Assembly (NCBI GenBank): GCA_017962315.1
Contig: JAGCVN010000127.1
Span: forward strand, 1 to 40,434
Origin: Kiritimatiellia bacterium
Lineage (GTDB): Bacteria; Verrucomicrobiota; Kiritimatiellia; RFP12; UBA1067
DNA length: 40,434 bases
Reading direction: 5' to 3'
Every line of letters starts with the position of its first letter. The stretch's first letter is position 1. Position numbers and translations under genes: made by a program. The notes under the pieces were generated by a model, which saw only the letters and a program-made list of their open reading frames with translations, did not search any database and had not been told where the DNA came from. Positions 25,316 through 37,757 of the stretch are shown piece by piece.

Positions 25316-28300
25316 CTACTTGACGAAGAGGATAAGGCCTCTGGCCTTGGAGGCGAGAACGATTTCGCCGTCCACGACCGAAACGCCCATCACCCACTCC
25401 GGTGCGCCCTCGGCGAGCGTGACGTTCGCACCCGCGAACTTGCCGCCCGCAGTCAGCACGTTCGCACCGCCCTTCGCGTGCTTGCCTTCCGCCGCCGTGA
25501 TCTTCACGACGACGTTGGACTGGCCATTCAGCGTCAAGGTCTTGCCCGACATGTCGAGAACCGGCGGCGTCTTGTCCGTGAAATTGAACCCAAGGCACGC
25601 GCCATCCGCAAGCGTGAGGTTCTTGCCAAACGTGACCGATCCGGACTGCGCCATCTCCAGCGTCGCACCGCTGTTTACCGTCGCATTGCCGCTACGAGTG
25701 AAGCCGCAGCCGACTTTGACGGACACGGTTGCCGTGTCCTGAACAGTCAGTGTGCCCATGAAATCGGATGGATACTCGAATACAATTTTTCCGCAGCCCT
25801 TCACGGTCATCGATCCTCCGCTGCCGATTCGTCCGAGGGAGCGGATAGTGCGAGCGACCGTGCGGTCGTCGTAGTCCGAGGTATCGACGGTGACCGCCCC
25901 GCCAAGCTCGAGGCAAAGGTCATAGCTCGTCGGATTCACTCCAAACGACCAGTCGTCAGACGATGCAAGCACGACGGTTTTGCCTGAGTTGATCATGAAG
26001 TACGGATAGCAGGTGGAGTTGCTCCTGCGGTTGTCCCTGAAGGAGAGTCCGCCGGAACCCAGAACGATTGTGTTGGTGATGCTGTCGCTCACGTTGTTGA
26101 GGTAGAACTGATGATTTTTCTGCGTCGAGCCGTTGTGGACAAGTCCCTTCGCCCGCGTCACGGCATCGCCAGTCGCAACGGCGAAGAAGCCGGCAAGACT
26201 ATATGCCGTTGTGGCGTTCGACCCAATCGTATCCAGCATCTCGCCCGTGACGTTGAACGTACCGGCGTTCTTGTAGAGGAAACGGTTCTTGTTTGTCGCG
26301 CCTAACGCGGCCTTCACTTCCGCAACGTTCAACGTGGCGTTTTCATTGATGACAAGATTGTACCCGTTATCAAGTGTCCCCGTCACGTTGACCGTCGCGC
26401 CGGACAGGATGCTCGCCCCGGTCGGAGGCTCATTCCAGTTCCCATCCAGGTTCCACACGCCCGCAAGGCGCATCTCATCGACGGACGGCATGGCCGTGAG
26501 CGCGATTCCGCCGCTGAACACGAGGTAATTCGCGTCGGCAAGCGGCAGCGCCGGCGTCGCCGCGCGCGCATCGACCGGACACGCAAACACATGGTGCTGC
26601 AAAGAGTTGTTCACGATGGAGGTCAACCCGGAAAGCGCCCTCTCGCCGGAGATCGTGACAAGCGCGGAATTCGTCGTGAATGTGATCGACGACGGGGCGA
26701 ACGTGTCGCCAAGCGTGAGATTCGCCGCCGTGTCGTTGCCGATTACGCAGGAGTCGCCACTCGTCGGAACCGTGCCGGGCAGCCAGTTCACGCCGTCGCT
26801 CAGGCTACCGCTTGCGCCGCCGACCCAGACGTATCCGGGATTGCCATAGACGCAGAGGATGGTTTTCGAGTCGGTCGAGAGACGCAGCGAGGCCCCGGCC
26901 GGAACAACCGCGCCGTCAAGGGCGGATGAGTTGAACGTCCCCGCGCCGCTGATCGTGAAGATTGCATAGACGCCGTCCGCAGGTGCGGTCTCGGGGACCA
27001 CGACTTCGTAGCCGCTCGCGAGATAGCTCTGCTCGGCGACGTACACCGTCGTTCCAAGTTCGACCGCCGTCTTGCCGGTGTAGGATGGCGCGACTGTAAA
27101 TCTTGCCTTGCCGCCGCCTTTGAACGTCAGGCTACCCGTGCCGGAAATGGTTCTGGCAATCGTGATGTCCTTGCCGTTCGTGTCAATCGTTCCGCCATTC
27201 GCCCCGGCCGTCACGGTCAGGTTGTTCTTGTTCGGGATGAACGCCGAGTTGTCCTTGTTTGCGCGAAGCGTTCCGCCGTCGAGCGTCACCGCCGCCGAGC
27301 CGCCAGAGCTCTTTCCGTTGACGATGATCCTTTCGCATGTGACAACGCCGCCGTCCGTGACGTTCACCGTTCCAACTGGGCTCTTGTTTCCGTAATAGCA
27401 CATGTTGATCGGGCCGAGCAGGTACACTTCGCCGCCTTGCACGTTCAGTGTTCCCTTGGCGTTCCCGGCCACGATGATGCCGTAGGAGGTTTCCGTCGAT
27501 TCATATTTCGCCCCCGACTTCACGGTCATCGTCGCGGGAGAGCTCGAACCCATGTGAATATACCCATTATGCGTCACCGTGCCGCCGGCGACCTCGAAAT
27601 ACGTATGAGAGGCGGTGTCAACTTTGCCGAGATCGACGGTACTTGAAATCGTCATTGTTCCATTCTCGTGGATGAACGACGTGTTTGCGCCAGCCGCACA
27701 GGCCAGGTACACGTTATTAAGCGTCCAGTCGCCGCCCGCCTTGACGATGGTAGAGGTGATGTTCGCGTCATTGCCAATATACCATTGCGCCGGACGGTTC
27801 GCGATTGTCGCGTTCTGCTCCATGCGCAGCGTCACGGGTTTCGCGGGATCCGTGCCGAAGGTAAGTTTCGTCCAGTTGATCGACGCCGTGCCGGAAAACG
27901 CGAGCGTTCCCTCGGAAAGCACGGTTTCGTCCGTCATGCGGCTTGTAGCGAGCGTGAGAGTGCCCGCGCCGTCCTTGGTGAGCGGGCCGGCAATGGGCGC
28001 GGCGATTGCTGCCGCAACGCCATTCGAGACGATGACGGCCGGCACCGTCAACGTCCCGCCGCCCGCAAGAACCTCCGCGTCGGCCCGGAACGTCACGTCA
28101 ACCGCCGTGACGTCGGCGCTGAGCGTCGCCTTGTCGCCGGAGTTCGCGAACGCGGCATGGGTTGAGTTGAACCAGTCGCCCGCAACGCCTCCCTTCGACC
28201 ACTTGCCGGCGGCCGTCCAGTCCGCCTCGGACGCACCGTCGTTCCAGACGTACTCGCCCGCAAGCGTGTCGAGAACCCTGATCGTCGTGTTGCCGTCGGC

Positions 28301-29818
28301 CAAGACAAGCGCGTAGCGGTTGCCCTCATTCCCCGTGAGCGTGATGGCCGCGAGGTCCGCCGCGCTGAACGTGCCGTTCTCCGTCGTGTTCGTGATGACG
28401 AGCGCACCGTCGCCGGCCCCGTTGGCGGAGAAATCGACCGACAGGTTCTCGATGAAGGACTTGTTTGTGTCCGCGACGGCAAGCGAGGTGCCGGCGTCAA
28501 GCGTCACGGCCGAGCAGCCGAGCGTCCCCACCGGCGTGACCATGCCGCCACCGACGAAGGAGATCGTGCCGTTCTCGCCGGACACGTCCGAGATGCCGGG
28601 TGTAATGGTGATGTTGTGCCAGGCCGTGTCGATCGTGCCGCCGTTCGCGCCGACTTCGACGGGCACTGAGGTAGGGATGAACGTTCCCGCCGCGCTGGCC
28701 GCAAGCTTACCGCCATTCAGAACAATCTTGCCGGAGCCGGACGAGATGATGCTCTTTGCCGTGAACGTTCCGCCGTTGAGAACCAACGTGCCCGAGGTCC
28801 CGCTCGCCCTGCCGATATAGGTGCTCCCGCTCGATGTCACCGTTCCGTCGTTCAGCGTGAACGTATTACCGGAGGTGGTGCCGGACGTCCCGATTGATAA
28901 CTCGTTGTAGGACGTCAGCGTTCCGCCGTCCATCGTGAACGTGCCGCAGGAGCCGTTGCCCGACCCAAGCCGCAGATAATAGCAAGTCCAGTCGCCGCCA
29001 AACTGCTCGACGATGCCCGTGGCGTTCTCGGCAACGCCCACGTTGAATACATTGCCCGAACCTGTCTGGCGCACAGTGCTTGAAGTCCCCCTGAACACGC
29101 TGTTCGCCCCCTTGTTGTTGGCGACGTTGAGGTCGCGCGAAACCGTCAACGTGGAATTGGAAAAGGTCACCGAGGATGTCGCGTACGTGCGCATATACTG
29201 AGCCGACATCGTTGTGTTCGTGATATATGACGCCGACGTCTCGTTCTGCTCAAAGGAGCCGGCGGAGAAGTCGAGCGTCGCTTTGTCTGCAACAAGCGTG
29301 CTTCCGCCGCGAAGATAAGCGTGGGACTTCGTCGTCAAGGACACGGTTGACGACCCATCGCCGACCTTCAGCCAGAAGTTGTGGGTGGCTCCACTACCTT
29401 CGCCGAGATGGGTCTTCTTCCCGCTGGTGCCGTTGAACTCATAGGTCCCGGACTTGATCCACAGCCAGCCGTCCTCGAAATAACCGAACCAGATGTCGTC
29501 CTTGATGGTCAGCTTGTTAGCTGGATCGGTCGCCTCAAAGATGTAGGGATTGGATGCTGAGCTTCCGGCACCCATGTGGATATTGCCAGTGTAGGTGTAT
29601 GAGCCATTCAGCGTGGCGGTCATGTTTTTGACGCCGGCAGTTCTAAACGCCAACGAGTCGCTTCCGCCCGGCATGGAGTCCCAGTTGCCCGACGTGTTCC
29701 AGAGCGTGTTGGCGCCGTTGCCCTTCCAGTTGCGCTGCGCCGCCATCAACGGCACTGCCGCCGCCATGCAGATTGCGGTCGCGACAAGCGCAACCTTACC
29801 GATCGTTTTTGTCTTCAT
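25316..29818 (-). CDS. giant secreted beta-strand-repeat surface protein (paralogue A)
   Basis: About 1500 aa, exported, probably an elongated beta-helix at the cell surface. The first 27 residues (MKTKTIGKVALVATAICMAA...) are a Sec signal. The mature start RNWKGNGANTLWNTSGNWDS is the W...W....NW pattern that opens proteins with autotransporter-associated beta-strand repeats. Many Gly/Thr/Ser-rich repeats follow, of types GTLVLNGGTFTAKSI, GTFTMDGGTLTSYNELSIG and GSLTFKGGGKARF-SYTGKTAVELGT. At ~two thirds lies a WVGGASGSLSDGVNW module shared with the other paralogues, and the last ~62 residues form the common C-terminal module ending in GLILFVK. No autotransporter beta-barrel, LPXTG or PEP-CTERM helix is seen. 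ATG 29818 has AAGGA upstream; the frame extends 20 codons further without support. Adhesin or polysaccharide-binding roles are guesses. Confidence 0.82.
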   Translation of the reverse strand: MKTKTIGKVALVATAICMAAAVPLMAAQRNWKGNGANTLWNTSGNWDSMPGGSDSLAFRTAGVKNMTATLNGSYTYTGNIHMGAGSSASNPYIFEATDPANKLTIKDDIWFGYFEDGWLWIKSGTYEFNGTSGKKTHLGEGSGATHNFWLKVGDGSSTVSLTTKSHAYLRGGSTLVADKATLDFSAGSFEQNETSASYITNTTMSAQYMRTYATSSVTFSNSTLTVSRDLNVANNKGANSVFRGTSSTVRQTGSGNVFNVGVAENATGIVEQFGGDWTCYYLRLGSGNGSCGTFTMDGGTLTSYNELSIGTSGTTSGNTFTLNDGTVTSSGSTYIGRASGTSGTLVLNGGTFTAKSIISSGSGKIVLNGGKLAASAAGTFIPTSVPVEVGANGGTIDTAWHNITITPGISDVSGENGTISFVGGGMVTPVGTLGCSAVTLDAGTSLAVADTNKSFIENLSVDFSANGAGDGALVITNTTENGTFSAADLAAITLTGNEGNRYALVLADGNTTIRVLDTLAGEYVWNDGASEADWTAAGKWSKGGVAGDWFNSTHAAFANSGDKATLSADVTAVDVTFRADAEVLAGGGTLTVPAVIVSNGVAAAIAAPIAGPLTKDGAGTLTLATSRMTDETVLSEGTLAFSGTASINWTKLTFGTDPAKPVTLRMEQNATIANRPAQWYIGNDANITSTIVKAGGDWTLNNVYLACAAGANTSFIHENGTMTISSTVDLGKVDTASHTYFEVAGGTVTHNGYIHMGSSSPATMTVKSGAKYESTETSYGIIVAGNAKGTLNVQGGEVYLLGPINMCYYGNKSPVGTVNVTDGGVVTCERIIVNGKSSGGSAAVTLDGGTLRANKDNSAFIPNKNNLTVTAGANGGTIDTNGKDITIARTISGTGSLTFKGGGKARFTVAPSYTGKTAVELGTTVYVAEQSYLASGYEVVVPETAPADGVYAIFTISGAGTFNSSALDGAVVPAGASLRLSTDSKTILCVYGNPGYVWVGGASGSLSDGVNWLPGTVPTSGDSCVIGNDTAANLTLGDTFAPSSITFTTNSALVTISGERALSGLTSIVNNSLQHHVFACPVDARAATPALPLADANYLVFSGGIALTAMPSVDEMRLAGVWNLDGNWNEPPTGASILSGATVNVTGTLDNGYNLVINENATLNVAEVKAALGATNKNRFLYKNAGTFNVTGEMLDTIGSNATTAYSLAGFFAVATGDAVTRAKGLVHNGSTQKNHQFYLNNVSDSITNTIVLGSGGLSFRDNRRSNSTCYPYFMINSGKTVVLASSDDWSFGVNPTSYDLCLELGGAVTVDTSDYDDRTVARTIRSLGRIGSGGSMTVKGCGKIVFEYPSDFMGTLTVQDTATVSVKVGCGFTRSGNATVNSGATLEMAQSGSVTFGKNLTLADGACLGFNFTDKTPPVLDMSGKTLTLNGQSNVVVKITAAEGKHAKGGANVLTAGGKFAGANVTLAEGAPEWVMGVSVVDGEIVLASKARGLILFVK

Positions 29819-29878
29819 CGCCACATTCCTTTGCAAATTTCCATCAGGGAAACCTGTCTTCCCCAAACGTATGTTCAC

Positions 29879-29999: not shown

Positions 30000-32900
30000 C
30001 TATCGGACGATTAGGATGAAGCCGCTGGGGATTGCCTCAAGAACGATGTTGCCATCGGCATTGACCGACACGCCCTTCGCCCAATCCGGCGCATCGGCGG
30101 CGAGCGTAACGTTCGCGTCCGTGAACGCACCGCCCGAAGTGAGCACATGTGCGCCGCCCTTCGCGCGCTTGCCTTCCGCCGCCGACACTTTCACCACGAC
30201 CGTGCCGTTCTCACCGAGCGCCACGGTCTTGCCGGTCACGTCAAGCACCGGTGCCGTCGCCTTCTCCGTGAAGTTGAAGCCGAGTGCCGCGCCGTCCACG
30301 AGCGTCAGGCCGCCGCCGAGCGCGACCGCGCCGGACTCCGCCACCTCCAGCGTCGCGCCGGAGTTGACGGTCACAAGGCCGTTGCCGGGCTTGCAGCCAA
30401 CCTTCACCGACGCCGTCGCCGTGTCCTGTACGGTAAGACCGCCAAAGCTGCTGTTCTCGTTCGAGAACACGACCTTGCCGTTGCCTGTGATGTGCATCGG
30501 GCCGACGGTCACCATTCCGTCAAGCGTGACGGTGTGGCTCGTCGCGGAATCGTATTCCGCGTCGCCGATCGCGTAGTGGCTCGTGTCGATGACAAGGAAT
30601 CCGCCGTTCCCGTCACCGATCTGGAGGGCGCATGTGGCGCGCCCGCTCGGATGCGCCATGAGCGTCCAGTCCGCATACGAGTGGAGCGTCGCCGCCGGAC
30701 GCCCGTCGAGCGTCTTGCCGAGCTTCGTCTCGTAGTGCGCGCCAGCGTAAATCGCCGTTTCGGGGAAGGAAAGTCCGCCCGGCCCAATCACCCACACGCC
30801 TTCGCCATTGTAGCCGCCGGTGGATACCGTCGTGCCCGTGAGTCCGCCGCAGTTGAGCATGAACACGGGGTACGGGAAACCGCCCCCCGTCTTCTTGGTC
30901 GCCGCGCACGTCAGTTTCTCCGCGATGATCGTGCCGCCGACCAGATCCGCACCGGCATACGAATGGAAGAGGACGGCGTCGCCGGTCGTCCTGACCTCCT
31001 TCGTGCGGACAACCCCGTTGCCGTTGTCGAAGACAACGTTGAAGTAGGCCGTCTTGCCGCCCGACGCCGACGACCTGACGCAGTTGTTGTACACCAACCG
31101 CTCGACAACTGCCGTCGCCCCGGCGTCGATGAACATGTGGTCGATGTTGCCGTTGTTGAACGAGAATGTCGTGCCAGGCACAAGATCGCCGTAGTTCCCG
31201 CTCGTCACATATCGCTGTTCCGACTCCGTCGTGAGCGTGACGTTGCCGCTCCAGTAGTCGACGGTGGCGCTGCCCGTCTTCGGCGCGTCGTACATCGTGA
31301 TGCCGCCCGCGAACACCATGTAGTCGCCGGAGCCGCGCGTGATGTCGGGCGTGATGCCGTCCGCGCAGACAATCGGGCAGTTGAACACGTGGTGGAACGG
31401 CGCATGGTTCACAATCGCCGTGACGCCGGAAAGCGTCCGTTCGCCGGAAATGGTGACAAGCGCGGTTTCCGCCGGGAACGTGATGGAGATCGCGGCAAAG
31501 GTGTCGCCGACAGTGAGGTTCGCCTCCGTCACGTTGCCGATGATGCAGTTGTCGCCTGTCGGGACAACGCCCGTGGACCAGTTCGCGCCGACGCTGAGGC
31601 TTCCGCTCGCGCCGCCGATCCATGCGGGATCGGGATTGCCGTAAACGCAGAGCACGGACTTGCCGTCGGCGGAAAGGACGAGACGGCATCCCGCCGGCGC
31701 AGCAACGCCCGTCAACGCGCTTGCCGGGAACGTCCCTTCGCCTGTAATCGAGAGAAGCACATAGACACCATCCGCAGGCGCCGTCGCCGGAACCGTCACC
31801 GCAAGTCCGCCAACAATCGCGCCGGGCTCGGGAATGAGAACCGTCGTGCCGACCTCCACCGTCGTCGCGCCCGTGTACGTGTTGCCCGCCGCGAGCGTGA
31901 TCTTCCCGCCGCCCTTGAACGTCATGCCGCCGCCAGTCGATTCCGCGTCTTCAAGAATCGGCTCGTGAACGGCCACCGTGAAGCCGTTGACGTCGATGAT
32001 ACCGCCATTCGCCGTCACCTTGACGAAAAGCCTGTCGTGCGCCGTGATGAGCTCCTGGTAGCTGCACATGACCGTTCCGCCGTTGAACCTGAACGTGCTG
32101 AGGGCGGATGTTCCGGCGTTGTACCAGATGCGCTTCACGAGGAGCGAGCCGCCCGTCTTGAGATCAACCAGCCCGTCGCCGGCGTCTGCGGCGTAGGCGA
32201 AGATCACGTCGGATCCAAGCGTGACGCTTCCGCCGTTGTCGATCACGACGGTGCCATCTCCCGAATGAGCGACGAGCAGGCTCCCCGCCGCGTCAAGCGT
32301 ACCCGAGCCCTTGACCGTGAGCATTCCGTCGTTATTGGCACCGACGATCGTGTAGCTGCCCGTATGCGTGGTCCTGACCGTTCCGCCGCTGATCTCCATC
32401 GACCCGAGGTTTCCACCGGCGACATCGCCGACGGACAGGTAGCTTCCGGCCGTCAGCGTGCCGCCCCTGTGAATGAACGTCGCCGTGGTCCCAGCCGTGG
32501 TCTTGCAGATGAAGAAGTTCCCGCTCACCGTCCAATCGCCGCCGTCCTTCACGAGCGTCGCGGCATCCGTTGCGGACGTTCCGATCGTCACGCTGGCCTG
32601 GCTCGCCAGAGCCGCGTCGCTCGCGAAGCGCAACGTTCCGCACGGAAGCGTGAACACACCGCTCGCCGTGCCGTATGTGCCGTTCGTGAGCGTCGCGTCC
32701 GTCTCGGCGGTCGTTGCCGGAATGCCGTCGAACGTGCCGCCGTCCATGGAGAGCGCACCTTCCAAAAGCGTGAGCGTGGTGGCGGGTTTCGCCGGAAGAA
32801 CGAGCGTCCCCGCGCCCGTCTTTGCGAAGTCGCCGCCGAACGGCGCGGAGATCGTCGCCGTCACGCCGTCCGCAACGGAGACAACCGGCACCGTCAGCGA

Positions 32901-34409
32901 TGCCGATCCGGCGATGGTGGCGTCTTCGCTGAACGTCACCGTACTCGCAGTGGCCGCCGTGTCGACATCGGCGATGGCGCCGTCCGTCGCGAAGATCGCG
33001 TCGTTGCCGTCCGTCCAGCTTGCGCCGCCGTTCCAGTTCGCGCCGTCCCAGGAGGCGGAGACGCCGGTCGCCCCGGCCCAGGTGAGCGCCCGCCTCGTCA
33101 CGGTGACGGCGATTGCGCCATCGACGATGGAAAGCGTCGCGCCGTCAAGGCCCGCGCCAAGCGTGACAGACGCAAGGTCGGCAGTCGTGCAGGGCGTGCC
33201 GTCGGCGCATGAAAGAAGGATATGCGTGCCTTCGGCGGAAACCCCGACCGGTCTCAGGACGGTCAAGCCGCGGGAGAGGATCGCGTCCTTGGCCGTACCG
33301 TCGGCGACGACGAGATGCGTCTGCTCGTTCAGGTACGTCACGCCGGTGTAGTTCACAGCGCCCGTCAGGCGCACCGTGCCGCCGTTGCCGGTGAACGTCA
33401 GCTTGCCCGTTTCGCCCGTCGCGTCGTCGAGATCCTCGGCAATCGTGATGTCGTATCCGGCCGTGTCGATCTTCGCGCCGCCGGCGCCGACCTTGACGGA
33501 CAGGTTGTTGTGCGCCGCGACGAGCGTGCCGGCCTGAAGCGCCCTGAGCGTGCCGCCGTTGAGCGTGAACGTCGCCGCCGCCGCGCCGGAGCCGTATTTG
33601 ACAGTCTTCGTGGCGAGCGTACCGCCGTTGAGGTTAAGGAAACAATCCCTGCCCGAAACGCAGGCGGGATTGGCGCAGAACAGTACGCCGTTCGCAGACG
33701 CGGTTGCAAGACCTCCCTCGACCGTGAAGACGCCCCTTCCGTTCGCGCCGACGATGATCGACCCTGCGGTCGCCTGAAGTTCGCCACCTGTAATTTTGAG
33801 CTCGCCGACGCCAGTATCTGTGTTGATTTCGCAGAGAGCGATGTTCCCCGCCGTGTTCTTGACGATTCCACCGCTGATTTCGAGGTACGCCCGCTTCGCG
33901 GTTTTACGCCCGAGGATGACGCCGTACTGCGCAGCGGTCATCGTCCCACTTTGATGGTAGAACTCCACTTCCGAGTTTGAGCCCTCGGCGAGATAGATTG
34001 TCTGGCGGTTGCTGCCTGTCTTGGTCAGGTTACCACTCTCGTTCGTGAACGTAAGATGGACACCTTCCGCTGTACCGCCCCAGAACTCATAGTTGTAAAC
34101 CTCCCAGTCGCCCTTCTTCACGATGTTCACCGTCGCGTTCGCGGTCGTGTTTTTAAAGCAGTAGAATTTCAGCGGCCCGATGAACACGAAGTCGCCGGAA
34201 TCGACGGCGAAGTCGTTCGCGATCTGCGTGCTGCTGGTGCTACTGATGTACGTCTTCTCAGAGACGGAGAGATGCAGTTGGTTGCCGGCACCGACCGCGC
34301 CGTCCCAGTTCGTCGTGTCCCAGATATCGTACGGGGCTTCCTCGCTTCCGCCGACCTTCGTTGCATCCCAATGCCGGTCCGCCGCCCGCGCCGACAATGG
34401 CGCCGCCAT
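30000..34409 (-). CDS. giant beta-strand-repeat surface protein (paralogue B), signal peptide out of frame
   Basis: About 1469 aa are in frame; the native protein would be ~1490 aa. The first in-frame ATG (34409) lies inside the hydrophobic core of the signal peptide (AAPLSARA) and has no ribosome site. The real start is almost certainly ATG 34483 with AAAGGAG upstream, separated from this frame by an eight-G run (see 34447-34454). The body matches paralogue A: mature start ADRHWDATKVGG with a later WDTTNWDGAVG, PATR-type repeats such as MEISGGTVRTTHTGSYTIVG and NNDGMLTVKGSGTLDAAGS, then the WIGGASGSLSVGANW module followed by a VTISGERTLSGVTAIVN block near-identical to that of A. The last ~63 residues are the shared C-terminal module ending in GFILIVR. 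As assembled, the protein would not be exported or made efficiently. Confidence 0.82.
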   Translation of the reverse strand: MAAPLSARAADRHWDATKVGGSEEAPYDIWDTTNWDGAVGAGNQLHLSVSEKTYISSTSSTQIANDFAVDSGDFVFIGPLKFYCFKNTTANATVNIVKKGDWEVYNYEFWGGTAEGVHLTFTNESGNLTKTGSNRQTIYLAEGSNSEVEFYHQSGTMTAAQYGVILGRKTAKRAYLEISGGIVKNTAGNIALCEINTDTGVGELKITGGELQATAGSIIVGANGRGVFTVEGGLATASANGVLFCANPACVSGRDCFLNLNGGTLATKTVKYGSGAAAATFTLNGGTLRALQAGTLVAAHNNLSVKVGAGGAKIDTAGYDITIAEDLDDATGETGKLTFTGNGGTVRLTGAVNYTGVTYLNEQTHLVVADGTAKDAILSRGLTVLRPVGVSAEGTHILLSCADGTPCTTADLASVTLGAGLDGATLSIVDGAIAVTVTRRALTWAGATGVSASWDGANWNGGASWTDGNDAIFATDGAIADVDTAATASTVTFSEDATIAGSASLTVPVVSVADGVTATISAPFGGDFAKTGAGTLVLPAKPATTLTLLEGALSMDGGTFDGIPATTAETDATLTNGTYGTASGVFTLPCGTLRFASDAALASQASVTIGTSATDAATLVKDGGDWTVSGNFFICKTTAGTTATFIHRGGTLTAGSYLSVGDVAGGNLGSMEISGGTVRTTHTGSYTIVGANNDGMLTVKGSGTLDAAGSLLVAHSGDGTVVIDNGGSVTLGSDVIFAYAADAGDGLVDLKTGGSLLVKRIWYNAGTSALSTFRFNGGTVMCSYQELITAHDRLFVKVTANGGIIDVNGFTVAVHEPILEDAESTGGGMTFKGGGKITLAAGNTYTGATTVEVGTTVLIPEPGAIVGGLAVTVPATAPADGVYVLLSITGEGTFPASALTGVAAPAGCRLVLSADGKSVLCVYGNPDPAWIGGASGSLSVGANWSTGVVPTGDNCIIGNVTEANLTVGDTFAAISITFPAETALVTISGERTLSGVTAIVNHAPFHHVFNCPIVCADGITPDITRGSGDYMVFAGGITMYDAPKTGSATVDYWSGNVTLTTESEQRYVTSGNYGDLVPGTTFSFNNGNIDHMFIDAGATAVVERLVYNNCVRSSASGGKTAYFNVVFDNGNGVVRTKEVRTTGDAVLFHSYAGADLVGGTIIAEKLTCAATKKTGGGFPYPVFMLNCGGLTGTTVSTGGYNGEGVWVIGPGGLSFPETAIYAGAHYETKLGKTLDGRPAATLHSYADWTLMAHPSGRATCALQIGDGNGGFLVIDTSHYAIGDAEYDSATSHTVTLDGMVTVGPMHITGNGKVVFSNENSSFGGLTVQDTATASVKVGCKPGNGLVTVNSGATLEVAESGAVALGGGLTLVDGAALGFNFTEKATAPVLDVTGKTVALGENGTVVVKVSAAEGKRAKGGAHVLTSGGAFTDANVTLAADAPDWAKGVSVNADGNIVLEAIPSGFILIVR

Positions 34410-34483
34410 GCAGACTGTCGCGGCGAGGAGGGAAACTACGGTTTTACCCCCCCCATGGGGATTTTGCCAGTTATCATTTTCAT
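34410..34483 (-). other. frame-separated signal-peptide start of paralogue B
   Basis: From ATG 34483 the frame reads MKMITGKIPMGG then hits TAG after 15 codons. With one additional G in the run at 34447-34454 the same start reads on through GKTVVSLLAATVCMAAPLSARA into ADRHW, a complete Sec signal peptide with SARA as cleavage site. The frame offset between ATG 34483 and the downstream ORF is exactly +1 base. Confidence 0.8.
34447..34454 (-). repeat. G8 homopolymer in signal-peptide codons (possible phase-variation tract)
   Basis: Eight consecutive C on the + strand (G on the coding strand, where one G belongs to the preceding ATG codon). It is the longest mononucleotide run noticed in a coding region here and sits exactly at the frameshift point of paralogue B. 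Slipped-strand changes of one base would switch the gene between off and on. Confidence 0.7.
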
Positions 34484-34508
34484 CGTTGTTTTCTCCTTTG
34501 TGGTTCTA

Positions 34509-34617: not shown

Positions 34618-34647
34618 ATTATATCAGATTTCTGGCATTCAGGTCAA
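34618..34647 (-). promoter_or_regulatory. promoter of surface paralogue B
   Basis: On the minus strand TTGACC (34647-34642), 18 bases, TATAAT (34623-34618), 135 bases before ATG 34483. The spacer contains a 17-mer (34623-34639) repeated exactly at 37495-37511. Confidence 0.7.
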
Positions 34648-34846: not shown

Positions 34847-37360
34847 CTACCTGACGATGATAACAGTGCTCTTACGCATGAGTTTGAGGACAATGTTGCC
34901 ATCGTTGTTGACCGAGACGCCCTTCGCCCACTCCGGCGCGCCAGCGGCGAGCGCGACGTCCTTGCCCGCGAACGCGCCGCCCTGCGTCAGCACGGTCGCA
35001 CTGCCTCCTGGCTTCACGCCATCCGCGGCGGAGACCTTCACCGCGATCGTCCCGCTCGCCGTCACGGTCTTGTCCGTCACGTCGAGAACCGGAGCTGTCG
35101 CATTGTCCGTGTAGTTGAACGCAAGCGTCGTCCCCTCCGCGAGCGACAGGTTGCCGCCGAGCGTGACCGTGCCAGACTGCGCCAGCTTCAAGGTCGATGT
35201 TCCCTGCAGCGTCACCGCGCCCTTCCCGGGCCTCGCGCTCGGCATGACGGACACCGTTGCGGAATCCTGCACCGTCAGCCCACCGGCAAAGATGTTGCCG
35301 TCTGACGTGTTGGCGAACACGAACCCGCCGCAGCCTTTGACGTTGACCTTGAACGCATTGGCGCTGTTCGCGTTTTCCGCCGCAATGGGCGCCTCGCAGG
35401 TTATCGTGCGACCGACGGACGGATCGTAGTAGTCGGAAGTGTCGAATGTGAGAGTGGATGTGGTCGTGCTGTTGTGCTTGTAGATCGCAGGATTGGCGGT
35501 GTCGGTGTGGCCGTAATCTTCGTAACGCATCGTCCAGTCGGCACTTGAACCAATCTCCATCGATCCCGAGTTGTACACCCTTATGTAGCCTACCCCGCGA
35601 ACAATGCCGCCGGAACCAATCACCGCCTTGATTCCCCCCGACGTATACGGCACGAAATACGCACCATTGGAGATCCTTATGCCTCCAACGACAAGAACGC
35701 CGTTTCCTCCATTCGCTAGGTAGTGCGTCGGGCGGTTATTACCTCCCTTGACCTGAAACTCTCCCTCGACGATGAACGTCCCGGAAAGGTTGTCCAGAAG
35801 CCGTTTTCCATCCTTATTGTTATGATCGATTTTGGCGCTTTTGACGACCGCCTTGCCGCCGGCATCTACATTGAAGTCGGCATTGTGCTTGTAGAAGCAT
35901 CCGTTCGGCAGACGGTATTCGCCGTCGCTCTTCACCGTCGTGTTGGCGATTTCCGTATGGTCGCCGGAAACGGTGAGCGTGTACAGACCGTGGATGTTGG
36001 TGGCGCGCGCGAGTTTCACGCCCGTTGCACCGCCGCTGAACTTGACCGCGCCGGGATTCTGCACAACGTCGATGTTCGTCGCGAAACTGACTGGAGTCGC
36101 CAATTCCATGGTGCTTGCGGAATTGTTCTCCACTTTGGACACGCCAGAAAACGCGCCGTCGCCACCGATCGACACCGAGGCGCAATACCGTTGAAACACG
36201 ATGGACGACGGCGAGAGCGTCACCCCCTCGGGAACGGTCAGCGAGGCGGGCGTCGTGCAGAAGAACACGGCGGGAATGCCGTTGGGGACGGCCCCGCCCG
36301 TCCAGTTGGCGCCGACGCTCAAATCGCCGTCCGCCGGGCCGACATACCAGCCGGGGGCGTGCGCGGTGCAGGTGACGACGATGGACTTGCCGTCGGCGCC
36401 GAACGCCGCCGTGAACGTCGCCGCCGCCGGACACGCAACGCCGGAGAGGTCGAGATCGCTGAGGTCTTCCGCAGACGTCAGCACCGTGATGGGCGTATCG
36501 AGAGCCGGAATGCCGACAAGCTCGAGCCCGTGCGAAAGAATCGCTGCCGCGTTGTCGTGCGAGACGTCGAGCACGGTGCCGGGCATGACGGACGTCTTGC
36601 CGGTGTATTCCGCCGCGCCGACGAGCGCGACGCTGCCGCCGCCAGTCAAGAGGACGTTGCCGGCCTCGCCGGATTTGTCGTTGAGCGCCGCGTTGATCGT
36701 CAGGGTACCGCCGGCCGTGTCAAACGTCGCGCCGGCCGCTCCAACGTTCACCGTAAGGCTTGCGGCGACGGACGTCGCCTTCAGCGTTGCGCTGTCGAAG
36801 ACAAGCGTCCCGGATCCGGAAACGGCCCCCGTCTCGTATGAAACGAAGTGATTGCCGTCGCCAAGCCTTAGATGTCCGTCAACGGTTAGGTTTGATTTGT
36901 ACGTGCCCCTCTGGATGTGCAGACCGCCGCCCTTGATATTCAACAGATAACCCGGTTTGGAAATGCCGTGGGCATCGTCTTCCGTCGTGAATACGATTGG
37001 CTGGCTCTCGCTTCCTGCGCTGAAGTTCAACGCGCTGCCGAAGGTCCCGACGGTTCTGAAAGTGATGATTTTCGGATTCCAGCCAGACGCAAACTTGCTG
37101 CTGTTGAGTTTGTTCAACACCGACTCGTCGATGTTCCAGTAGTTACCGGTAGGCACGGAACTTGGAGTTGCCCACTTGGGGTTGCTCTGCGAACCTGAGT
37201 TGTAGCGCCAGTTGCTCGTGTCATCCCAGTAGAATGGGGAAGAACCGCCGCCGTACCATGCCACGTAAGCCGCGTGCGCGGACTGCGCGAACGCAAACGC
37301 GATTGCAAGAGCGCCGAACGCTGTCGTCTTGGCAGCGGATTTAGCCTTACCTGTTTTCAT
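34847..37360 (-). CDS. secreted beta-strand-repeat surface protein (paralogue C)
   Basis: A shorter member of the family, 837 aa. Residues 1-~30 are a Sec signal (MKTGKAKSAAKTTAFGALAIAFAFAQ, then SAHA cleavage). The mature start YVAWYGGGSSPFYWDDTSNW keeps the W...NW opening. Beta-repeat stretches include HIQRGTYKSNLTVDGHLRLG and GNVLLTGGGSVALVGAAEYTG. A module WYVGPADGDLSVGANW sits mid-protein. The last third mirrors paralogues A and B (CGGFVFANTSDGNIFAGGLTVQDSATVSV, then LAQSGTVTLGGNLSLAEG), closing with the C-terminal module ending in STVIIVR. ATG 37360 has AGGA four bases upstream; 12 further in-frame codons from 37396 lack support. A lone TATAAT lies ~90 bp upstream. No barrel or wall anchor is seen. 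Confidence 0.82.
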   Translation of the reverse strand: MKTGKAKSAAKTTAFGALAIAFAFAQSAHAAYVAWYGGGSSPFYWDDTSNWRYNSGSQSNPKWATPSSVPTGNYWNIDESVLNKLNSSKFASGWNPKIITFRTVGTFGSALNFSAGSESQPIVFTTEDDAHGISKPGYLLNIKGGGLHIQRGTYKSNLTVDGHLRLGDGNHFVSYETGAVSGSGTLVFDSATLKATSVAASLTVNVGAAGATFDTAGGTLTINAALNDKSGEAGNVLLTGGGSVALVGAAEYTGKTSVMPGTVLDVSHDNAAAILSHGLELVGIPALDTPITVLTSAEDLSDLDLSGVACPAAATFTAAFGADGKSIVVTCTAHAPGWYVGPADGDLSVGANWTGGAVPNGIPAVFFCTTPASLTVPEGVTLSPSSIVFQRYCASVSIGGDGAFSGVSKVENNSASTMELATPVSFATNIDVVQNPGAVKFSGGATGVKLARATNIHGLYTLTVSGDHTEIANTTVKSDGEYRLPNGCFYKHNADFNVDAGGKAVVKSAKIDHNNKDGKRLLDNLSGTFIVEGEFQVKGGNNRPTHYLANGGNGVLVVGGIRISNGAYFVPYTSGGIKAVIGSGGIVRGVGYIRVYNSGSMEIGSSADWTMRYEDYGHTDTANPAIYKHNSTTTSTLTFDTSDYYDPSVGRTITCEAPIAAENANSANAFKVNVKGCGGFVFANTSDGNIFAGGLTVQDSATVSVMPSARPGKGAVTLQGTSTLKLAQSGTVTLGGNLSLAEGTTLAFNYTDNATAPVLDVTDKTVTASGTIAVKVSAADGVKPGGSATVLTQGGAFAGKDVALAAGAPEWAKGVSVNNDGNIVLKLMRKSTVIIVR

Positions 37361-37387
37361 TTTTCCTATGCCTTGTTGTTGATCTTG

Positions 37388-37422
37388 CAAAATCATTGCT
37401 CCGGCCGGTCGAGGAACTCCGC
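37388..37422 (-). promoter_or_regulatory. shared leader element, copy in paralogue C 5' UTR
   Basis: On the minus strand: CGGAGTTCCTCGAC, then CGGCC, GGAGCAA and TGATTTT, the same blocks in the same order as 34509-34549. It sits about 30-60 bases before ATG 37360. Confidence 0.5.
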
Positions 37423-37549: not shown

Positions 37550-37757
37550 CTACCGGACGATTACGATGAAGCCGCTGGGGATTGCCTCAAAAACGATGTT
37601 GCCGTCGGCGTTCACGGAGACGCCCTTCGCACTTCTGCGCACCGGCGGCGAGCGTGACGTTCGCACCCGCGAACTTACCTCCGGCTGTCAACATGTTTGC
37701 GCCGCCCTTCACGTACCTGCCCTCCTCCGCCGAAACCTTCACCAAGACGTTCACTTG
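37550..37757 (-). pseudogene. C-terminal stub of a fourth surface paralogue, frameshifted
   Basis: Reading the minus strand from ~37757, one frame gives NVLVKVSAEEGRYVKGG, ANMLTAGGKFAGANVTLAAGA, and a second frame gives AKGVSVNADGNIVFEAIPSG, FIVIVR and stop. Together they are the shared C-terminal module. Compared with the intact copies (AGAPEWAKGVSV) two bases are missing at the APEW position, near 37632-37638. Everything upstream of this module is absent: the next gene's stop codon (37751-37753) lies within the breakpoint. It is closest to paralogue B at its end (EAIPSGF) and to A in its first half (GGKFAGANVTLA). Confidence 0.82.

Follow-up and report, generated by a model that had tools for sequence, protein, structure and literature searches.

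A G8 tract in the signal-peptide leader of a giant beta-helix protein gene of a Kiritimatiellia bacterium is probably a phase-variation switch in the off state

Introduction

In a 40,434-nt stretch of DNA from a Kiritimatiellia bacterium (hereafter the window, the whole sequence analysed here), an ORF of 1469 codons is separated from its leader by a run of eight G residues that puts the two out of frame. The question raised by this locus is whether the run is a contingency switch captured in the off position or the mark of a broken gene. Most of what is known about simple-repeat phase variation comes from pathogens and commensals adapted to a host, among them Neisseria, Haemophilus, Campylobacter, and Helicobacter. 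Systematic use of such switches in an uncultured gut or rumen lineage, in the two layouts described below, would mean that random surface diversification in response to phages, hosts, or competitors extends to these bacteria; many of their largest genes would then also be miscalled in metagenome assemblies, as truncated or lacking a start.

Results

All elements of the locus lie on the minus strand. A sigma-70-type promoter, TTGACC-18-TATAAT (34618–34647; 11 of 12 matches), has a spacer without a G tract. The Shine–Dalgarno sequence AAAGGAG, a 9-nt spacer, and the leader start, ATG at 34483, occupy 34483–34501, and by its sequence the locus (L130) belongs to the leader class defined below. From this ATG the sequence reads ATGAAAATGATAACTGGCAAAATCCCCAT-G8-TAAAACCGTAG. 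The leader codons MKMITGKIPM (34455–34483), which from the sequence and the cognate leaders form the n-region of a signal peptide, precede the G8 tract (34447–34454), the proposed slippage site, whose onset is 29 nt past the A of the ATG; the hydrophobic core of the signal peptide (GKTVVSLLAATVCMA..., 34408–34446) follows in frame with the long ORF. The frame of ATG 34483 itself encodes MKMITGKIPMGGVKP and then stops, after 15 codons, and the 1469-codon ORF (30000–34409) is open in another frame, which has a stop at the leader and no start codon upstream of 34409. The initial annotation had described the ATG at 34483 as the sole well-placed start, one base out of frame with the long ORF, and had proposed that one frame step at the G8 tract restores the signal peptide. 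Both statements hold: the sequence and the frames agree, and the computed join fuses MKMITGKIPMGGG-KTVVSLLAATVCMAAPLSARA with ADRHW, giving the complete, normal signal peptide MKMITGKIPMGGGKTVVSLLAATVCMAAPLSARA. At this locus, a mononucleotide tract at the 5′ end sets the frame of the ORF.

The ORF encodes a PATR/T5SS-like repeat protein with a right-handed beta-helical C-terminal region and the tail SGFILIVR. Its matches to the PATR and T5SS repeats are weak and below cut-off (16.6 bits for the PATR repeat PF12951 against a gathering cut-off of 27, which the sister genes L231 and L224 pass). No match of the protein to the Chlam_PMP repeats (PF02415) was found in a Pfam profile search, and the autotransporter barrel (PF03797) that would mark a type Va translocator is absent from it in Pfam/NCBIfam. 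The predicted model of residues 860–1469 (pLDDT 87.8) is a beta-helix to near its end. Its best structural match is 7jvi_A, a beta-helix from a gut metagenome (Z 19.4, rmsd 3.9, 325 residues aligned), and pertactin, Hbp, and similar autotransporter passengers match it with Z 13–14, as would be expected of a beta-helical passenger. Foldseek with the model of the protein returned weak matches only, and a second structural aligner supports the beta-helix. In the gut, the protein probably helps the cell to attach or masks its surface.

Two paralogues in the window, both on the minus strand, have signal peptides without a G tract. Paralogue A (25316–29878) adjoins the G8 gene, is 42% identical to it, and has the same leader and core minus the poly-glycine insert (MKTKTIGKVALVATAICMAAAVPLMAAQR); paralogue C occupies 34847–37396. 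A decayed C-terminal remnant of a fourth family copy, frame-broken and spread over two frames, was observed at 37553–37751 (minus strand), directly after the ORF ending at 37751. Comparison of the G8 gene with its nearest orthologue, in genome G003, gave a dN of 0.22 and a dS of 0.81 (dN/dS approximately 0.28), indicating purifying selection. In this orthologue, a G9 tract is found in the promoter spacer instead (TTGACT..G9..TACAAT).

A C-terminal heptapeptide, G-[TFL]-h-h-h-h-[RK], was also noticed at 30003–30026, 25319–25342, and 34850–34873 of the window (minus strand) and at many other loci. In the form G-x-h-h-h-h-[RK], it ends 45 of 912 long ORFs against 0.4 expected, in the window paralogues and in many unrelated giant secreted proteins. 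It is present in 10 of 11 complete leader-class proteins (Fisher P approximately 3e-13, uncorrected for relatedness). From its sequence, the tail looks like a candidate C-terminal sorting signal, perhaps an undescribed one.

How much the run itself can tell was assessed from chance expectation. First-order Markov simulations of the window gave 1.5 G8/C8 runs per 40 kb, and the window has one. The length of the run was accordingly rejected as significant in itself: the G8 run alone means little, because one per 40 kb matches simulated chance. What goes beyond chance is the position of the tract and its cognates, and the case is therefore carried by comparative evidence. In the window's own genome, a fragmented metagenome assembly (3.26 Mb, 157 contigs, 84.6% complete), G8 followed by TA (G8TA) is not enriched over the reversed pattern (5:4). 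A census of its runs of G9 or longer found mostly unrelated contexts, so this census carries no weight in the case. G9 runs also occur at non-leader positions inside long intact ORFs of this genome, and poly-G alone is thus no proof of a switch. A scan of genome contigs returned a single relative, the one named relative L037, a Kiritimatiellae MAG from the dairy-cattle rumen, and no second allele.

Cognates of the leader were searched for in 57 family genomes with the pattern ATG-N26-G7. The closest, G074:C81, has ATG..ACCCCGAT-G9-TAAAGTTGTA in frame and reads MTWKTIKTPM-GGG-KVVVAAVMA, that is, MTWKTIKTPM-GGG-KVVVAAVMAVTMA. The gene behind it, for a protein of 231 residues, is otherwise unrelated to the window gene, which suggests, at the level of sequence, that the leader is a module shared across unrelated genes. 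Further in-frame leader cognates are G009:C197, G024:C113, and G024:C43, the tracts of the four ranging from G9 to G11. Among the homologues fetched, other giant secreted proteins have G10–G11 just after the start, in the same place as the window tract, and still others have G9–G10 in the spacer between −35 and −10.

The initial annotation had proposed looking in related genomes for variation in tract length, and such variation was found: the G9–G11 cognates include both on and off states. G024 has the same leader at separate loci with G10 (on) and G11 (off). L138 of G002 (on) and its orthologue L150 of G001 (off), which come from different species, have 80% identity and a one-base difference across the tract, with dN 0.13, dS 0.58, and dN/dS approximately 0.23. 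Differing length and state are thus documented for these cognate orthologues and for the same-leader loci of G024 rather than for the window's own locus, and off alleles with an intact ORF under selection are found both in the window (against G003) and in the L138/L150 pair. The tracts of G074 are, with few exceptions, exactly G9, a pattern that frequent switching would not be expected to produce.

The wider census covered runs of G8 or longer followed by TA, giving 127 distinct tracts from ten genomes and a second set of 51 from 25 other family genomes. Leader class was defined as a tract between an ATG with a ribosome site and the hydrophobic signal-peptide core of a long ORF, and promoter class as a tract in a TTGAC..TA...T spacer. 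In the ten genomes, 26 of 127 tracts were leader class (0.7% of random positions) and 21 of 127 were promoter class (0.2% of random positions); in the 25 further genomes, the counts were 3 and 7 of 51, respectively. G8TA outnumbers the reversed pattern 37:4 in G001, 24:5 in G074, 21:2 in G024, and 10:0 in G028, whereas elsewhere in the phylum the ratio is mostly close to 1:1. The genes behind tracts of both classes mostly encode giant secreted proteins, those of the promoter class mostly giant proteins bearing signal peptides. Seventeen of the 26 scorable leader tracts are in frame, against one third expected without constraint (P = 0.0008), and the other nine, the window tract included, are off by one with their long ORFs intact. 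Left out of this on/off count were L144, L218, and L219, in which the tract sits in a short upstream frame and the signal peptide has a separate ATG.

G tracts between a −35 TTGACA and the −10 of giant secreted proteins were seen at L192, L187, L222, L223, L224, L142, L173, L195, L199, L202, and other loci. The spacing of promoter-class tracts is 14–20 and is set by tract length. Such promoter-spacer tracts in the relatives are a probable form of transcriptional phase variation.

Discussion

We consider it likely that the G8 tract of the window is a translational poly-G contingency locus captured in the off state and one of a lineage-wide set. Replication slippage would make the G run one base longer or shorter. 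Whenever the resulting length preserves the frame, MKMITGKIPM-GGG would be fused to the signal-peptide core, leading to export of the giant beta-helix protein; at the length present in the assembly, translation would halt after 15 codons and the protein would be absent. The poly-glycine encoded by the tract falls within the signal-peptide n-region, which should accommodate one more glycine. In the relatives, similar tracts in signal-peptide n-regions or −35/−10 spacers of giant secreted proteins would act in like manner. The initial annotation had called the gene phase-variable and captured off. The relatives strongly support G-tract switching in the signal-peptide region, through cognates in and out of frame, the one-base orthologue pair, purifying selection on an off copy, and the promoter-spacer tracts. 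From what was observed in the window and its relatives, namely the anatomy, the frame offset, the intact selected ORF, the cognates in both states, and the one orthologue pair, we infer switching of the window's own tract in a living population. Its rate may be low, because G8 is short for a switch of this kind when compared with the known poly-G switches cited below.

Alternatively, the G8 tract could be accidental, a one-off frameshift by which the start was lost in this strain and the gene is becoming a pseudogene. The dead fourth-copy remnant nearby and the chance frequency of G8 runs in the window are in keeping with such a loss; however, the leader module recurs with G9–G11 in other genera and in both states, and we regard this explanation as unlikely. 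The initial annotation had cited the long ORF against an old dead gene, and the ORF is indeed intact with a dN/dS of an orthologue under constraint, although a recent death would look alike.

It is also possible that the true length is G9, with a one-base assembly error, in which case the gene would be expressed and the tract perhaps variable in other cells. Fragmented metagenome assemblies such as this one, and the proneness of poly-G to indel errors with some sequencing methods, leave some room for this, but the error would need to fall exactly where the relatives vary. Other long ORFs of this assembly contain G9 tracts that are in frame (L105, L107, and L109), which speaks against systematic shortening of G runs and makes an assembly error less likely; we rate it as quite unlikely.

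Programmed −1 ribosomal (or transcriptional) slippage would give steady low expression without any change in DNA. The zero-frame ATG GGG GGG does provide the heptamer G_GGG_GGG, from which a −1 slip enters the long frame exactly. However, a stimulatory RNA structure was sought downstream of the window G8 and none of unusual stability was found (z = 0.35), the majority of cognates read in frame as they stand, and others would need a shift in the opposite direction, so slippage of this kind is very unlikely. Translation from ATG 34409, where the long ORF has its first start codon, would make the protein without a signal peptide and is hardly credible: no ribosome site precedes this codon, the hydrophobic core needed for a complete signal peptide ends there, and the paralogues and relatives have complete signal peptides.

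The contingency switch favoured here has well-known counterparts. In Neisseria pilC, the tract is located in the signal-peptide region. Repeat switches, including poly-G, are classical in neisserial surface-protein genes, with pilC tracts of 9–20 listed and the poly-G of pilC, pgl, and lgt spanning 9–21 (PMC5953494). Like the window locus, pilC and opa are surface-protein genes with a simple repeat close to the 5′ end of the ORF, where a one-unit change breaks the frame. The protein families, however, are unrelated and belong to another phylum, and, unlike in Neisseria, a similar poly-glycine n-region is found repeatedly among unrelated giant proteins, and in sister genes the tract is in the promoter spacer. 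Homopolymer tracts in the −35/−10 spacers of phase-variable promoters are found in, for example, Neisseria and Bordetella. The promoter-class tracts of the relatives share this layout (TTGACA..Gn..TATAAT), whereas the promoter of the window gene has no tract.

Closer in phylogeny, the beta-helix surface protein PmpG of the chlamydiae, in the PVC superphylum, has poly-G frameshift hotspots (PMC6740158). As in the window family, these are of variable length, frameshifted and intact copies are mixed, and the downstream ORF is conserved; however, the PmpG hotspots are located deep within the coding sequence, ahead of an autotransporter barrel, whereas the window gene has its tract in the signal peptide, and no barrel domain was found in its product. 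In Akkermansia muciniphila, long homopolymers, including a G8 in a capsule gene, have been suggested to allow phase variation (PMC3048395). This member of the Verrucomicrobia has long runs like the window, but these are in capsule genes, without a signal-peptide module or a comparison across the lineage. The earlier statement that no such switching is described for this protein family needs qualifying in the light of these two reports. A full-text search of open-licence papers found none on phase variation in Kiritimatiellae. The mechanism itself is established (pilC, opa, and chlamydial Pmp); its wide use in this lineage and the signal-peptide module in two layouts appear to be new.

Whether the arrangement extends to a family-wide system is evenly balanced: dozens of giant secreted beta-helix proteins with the G-x-hhhh-[RK] tail, each under a G tract in the n-region or promoter spacer, may make the surface a stochastic mix of on and off.

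Several other G tracts were noticed. In the window's own genome, the gene for a BspA-type LRR surface protein that bears a signal peptide has a G8 in its promoter spacer, TTGACG-16-TAAACT (L120, G000:C12:4920–4929), and a G20 lies approximately 100 bases upstream of a glycosyltransferase-like ORF (L236, G000:C152:60562–60583). A G9 on contig G000:C87 (L104, position 4109, minus strand) fills the −35/−10 spacer TTGACA-17-TATAGT of a promoter that apparently drives a tRNA gene. Finally, a dispersed repeat, cgtcaggcaatga-Gn-tatttgcgccatgcgcggacgcgccacggggcgtc, with G10–G12 and an inverted repeat, occurs in several genomes including the window's own (L140, L125, L226, L284, L286, L292, and L293) and forms a third, REP-like class of G tract.
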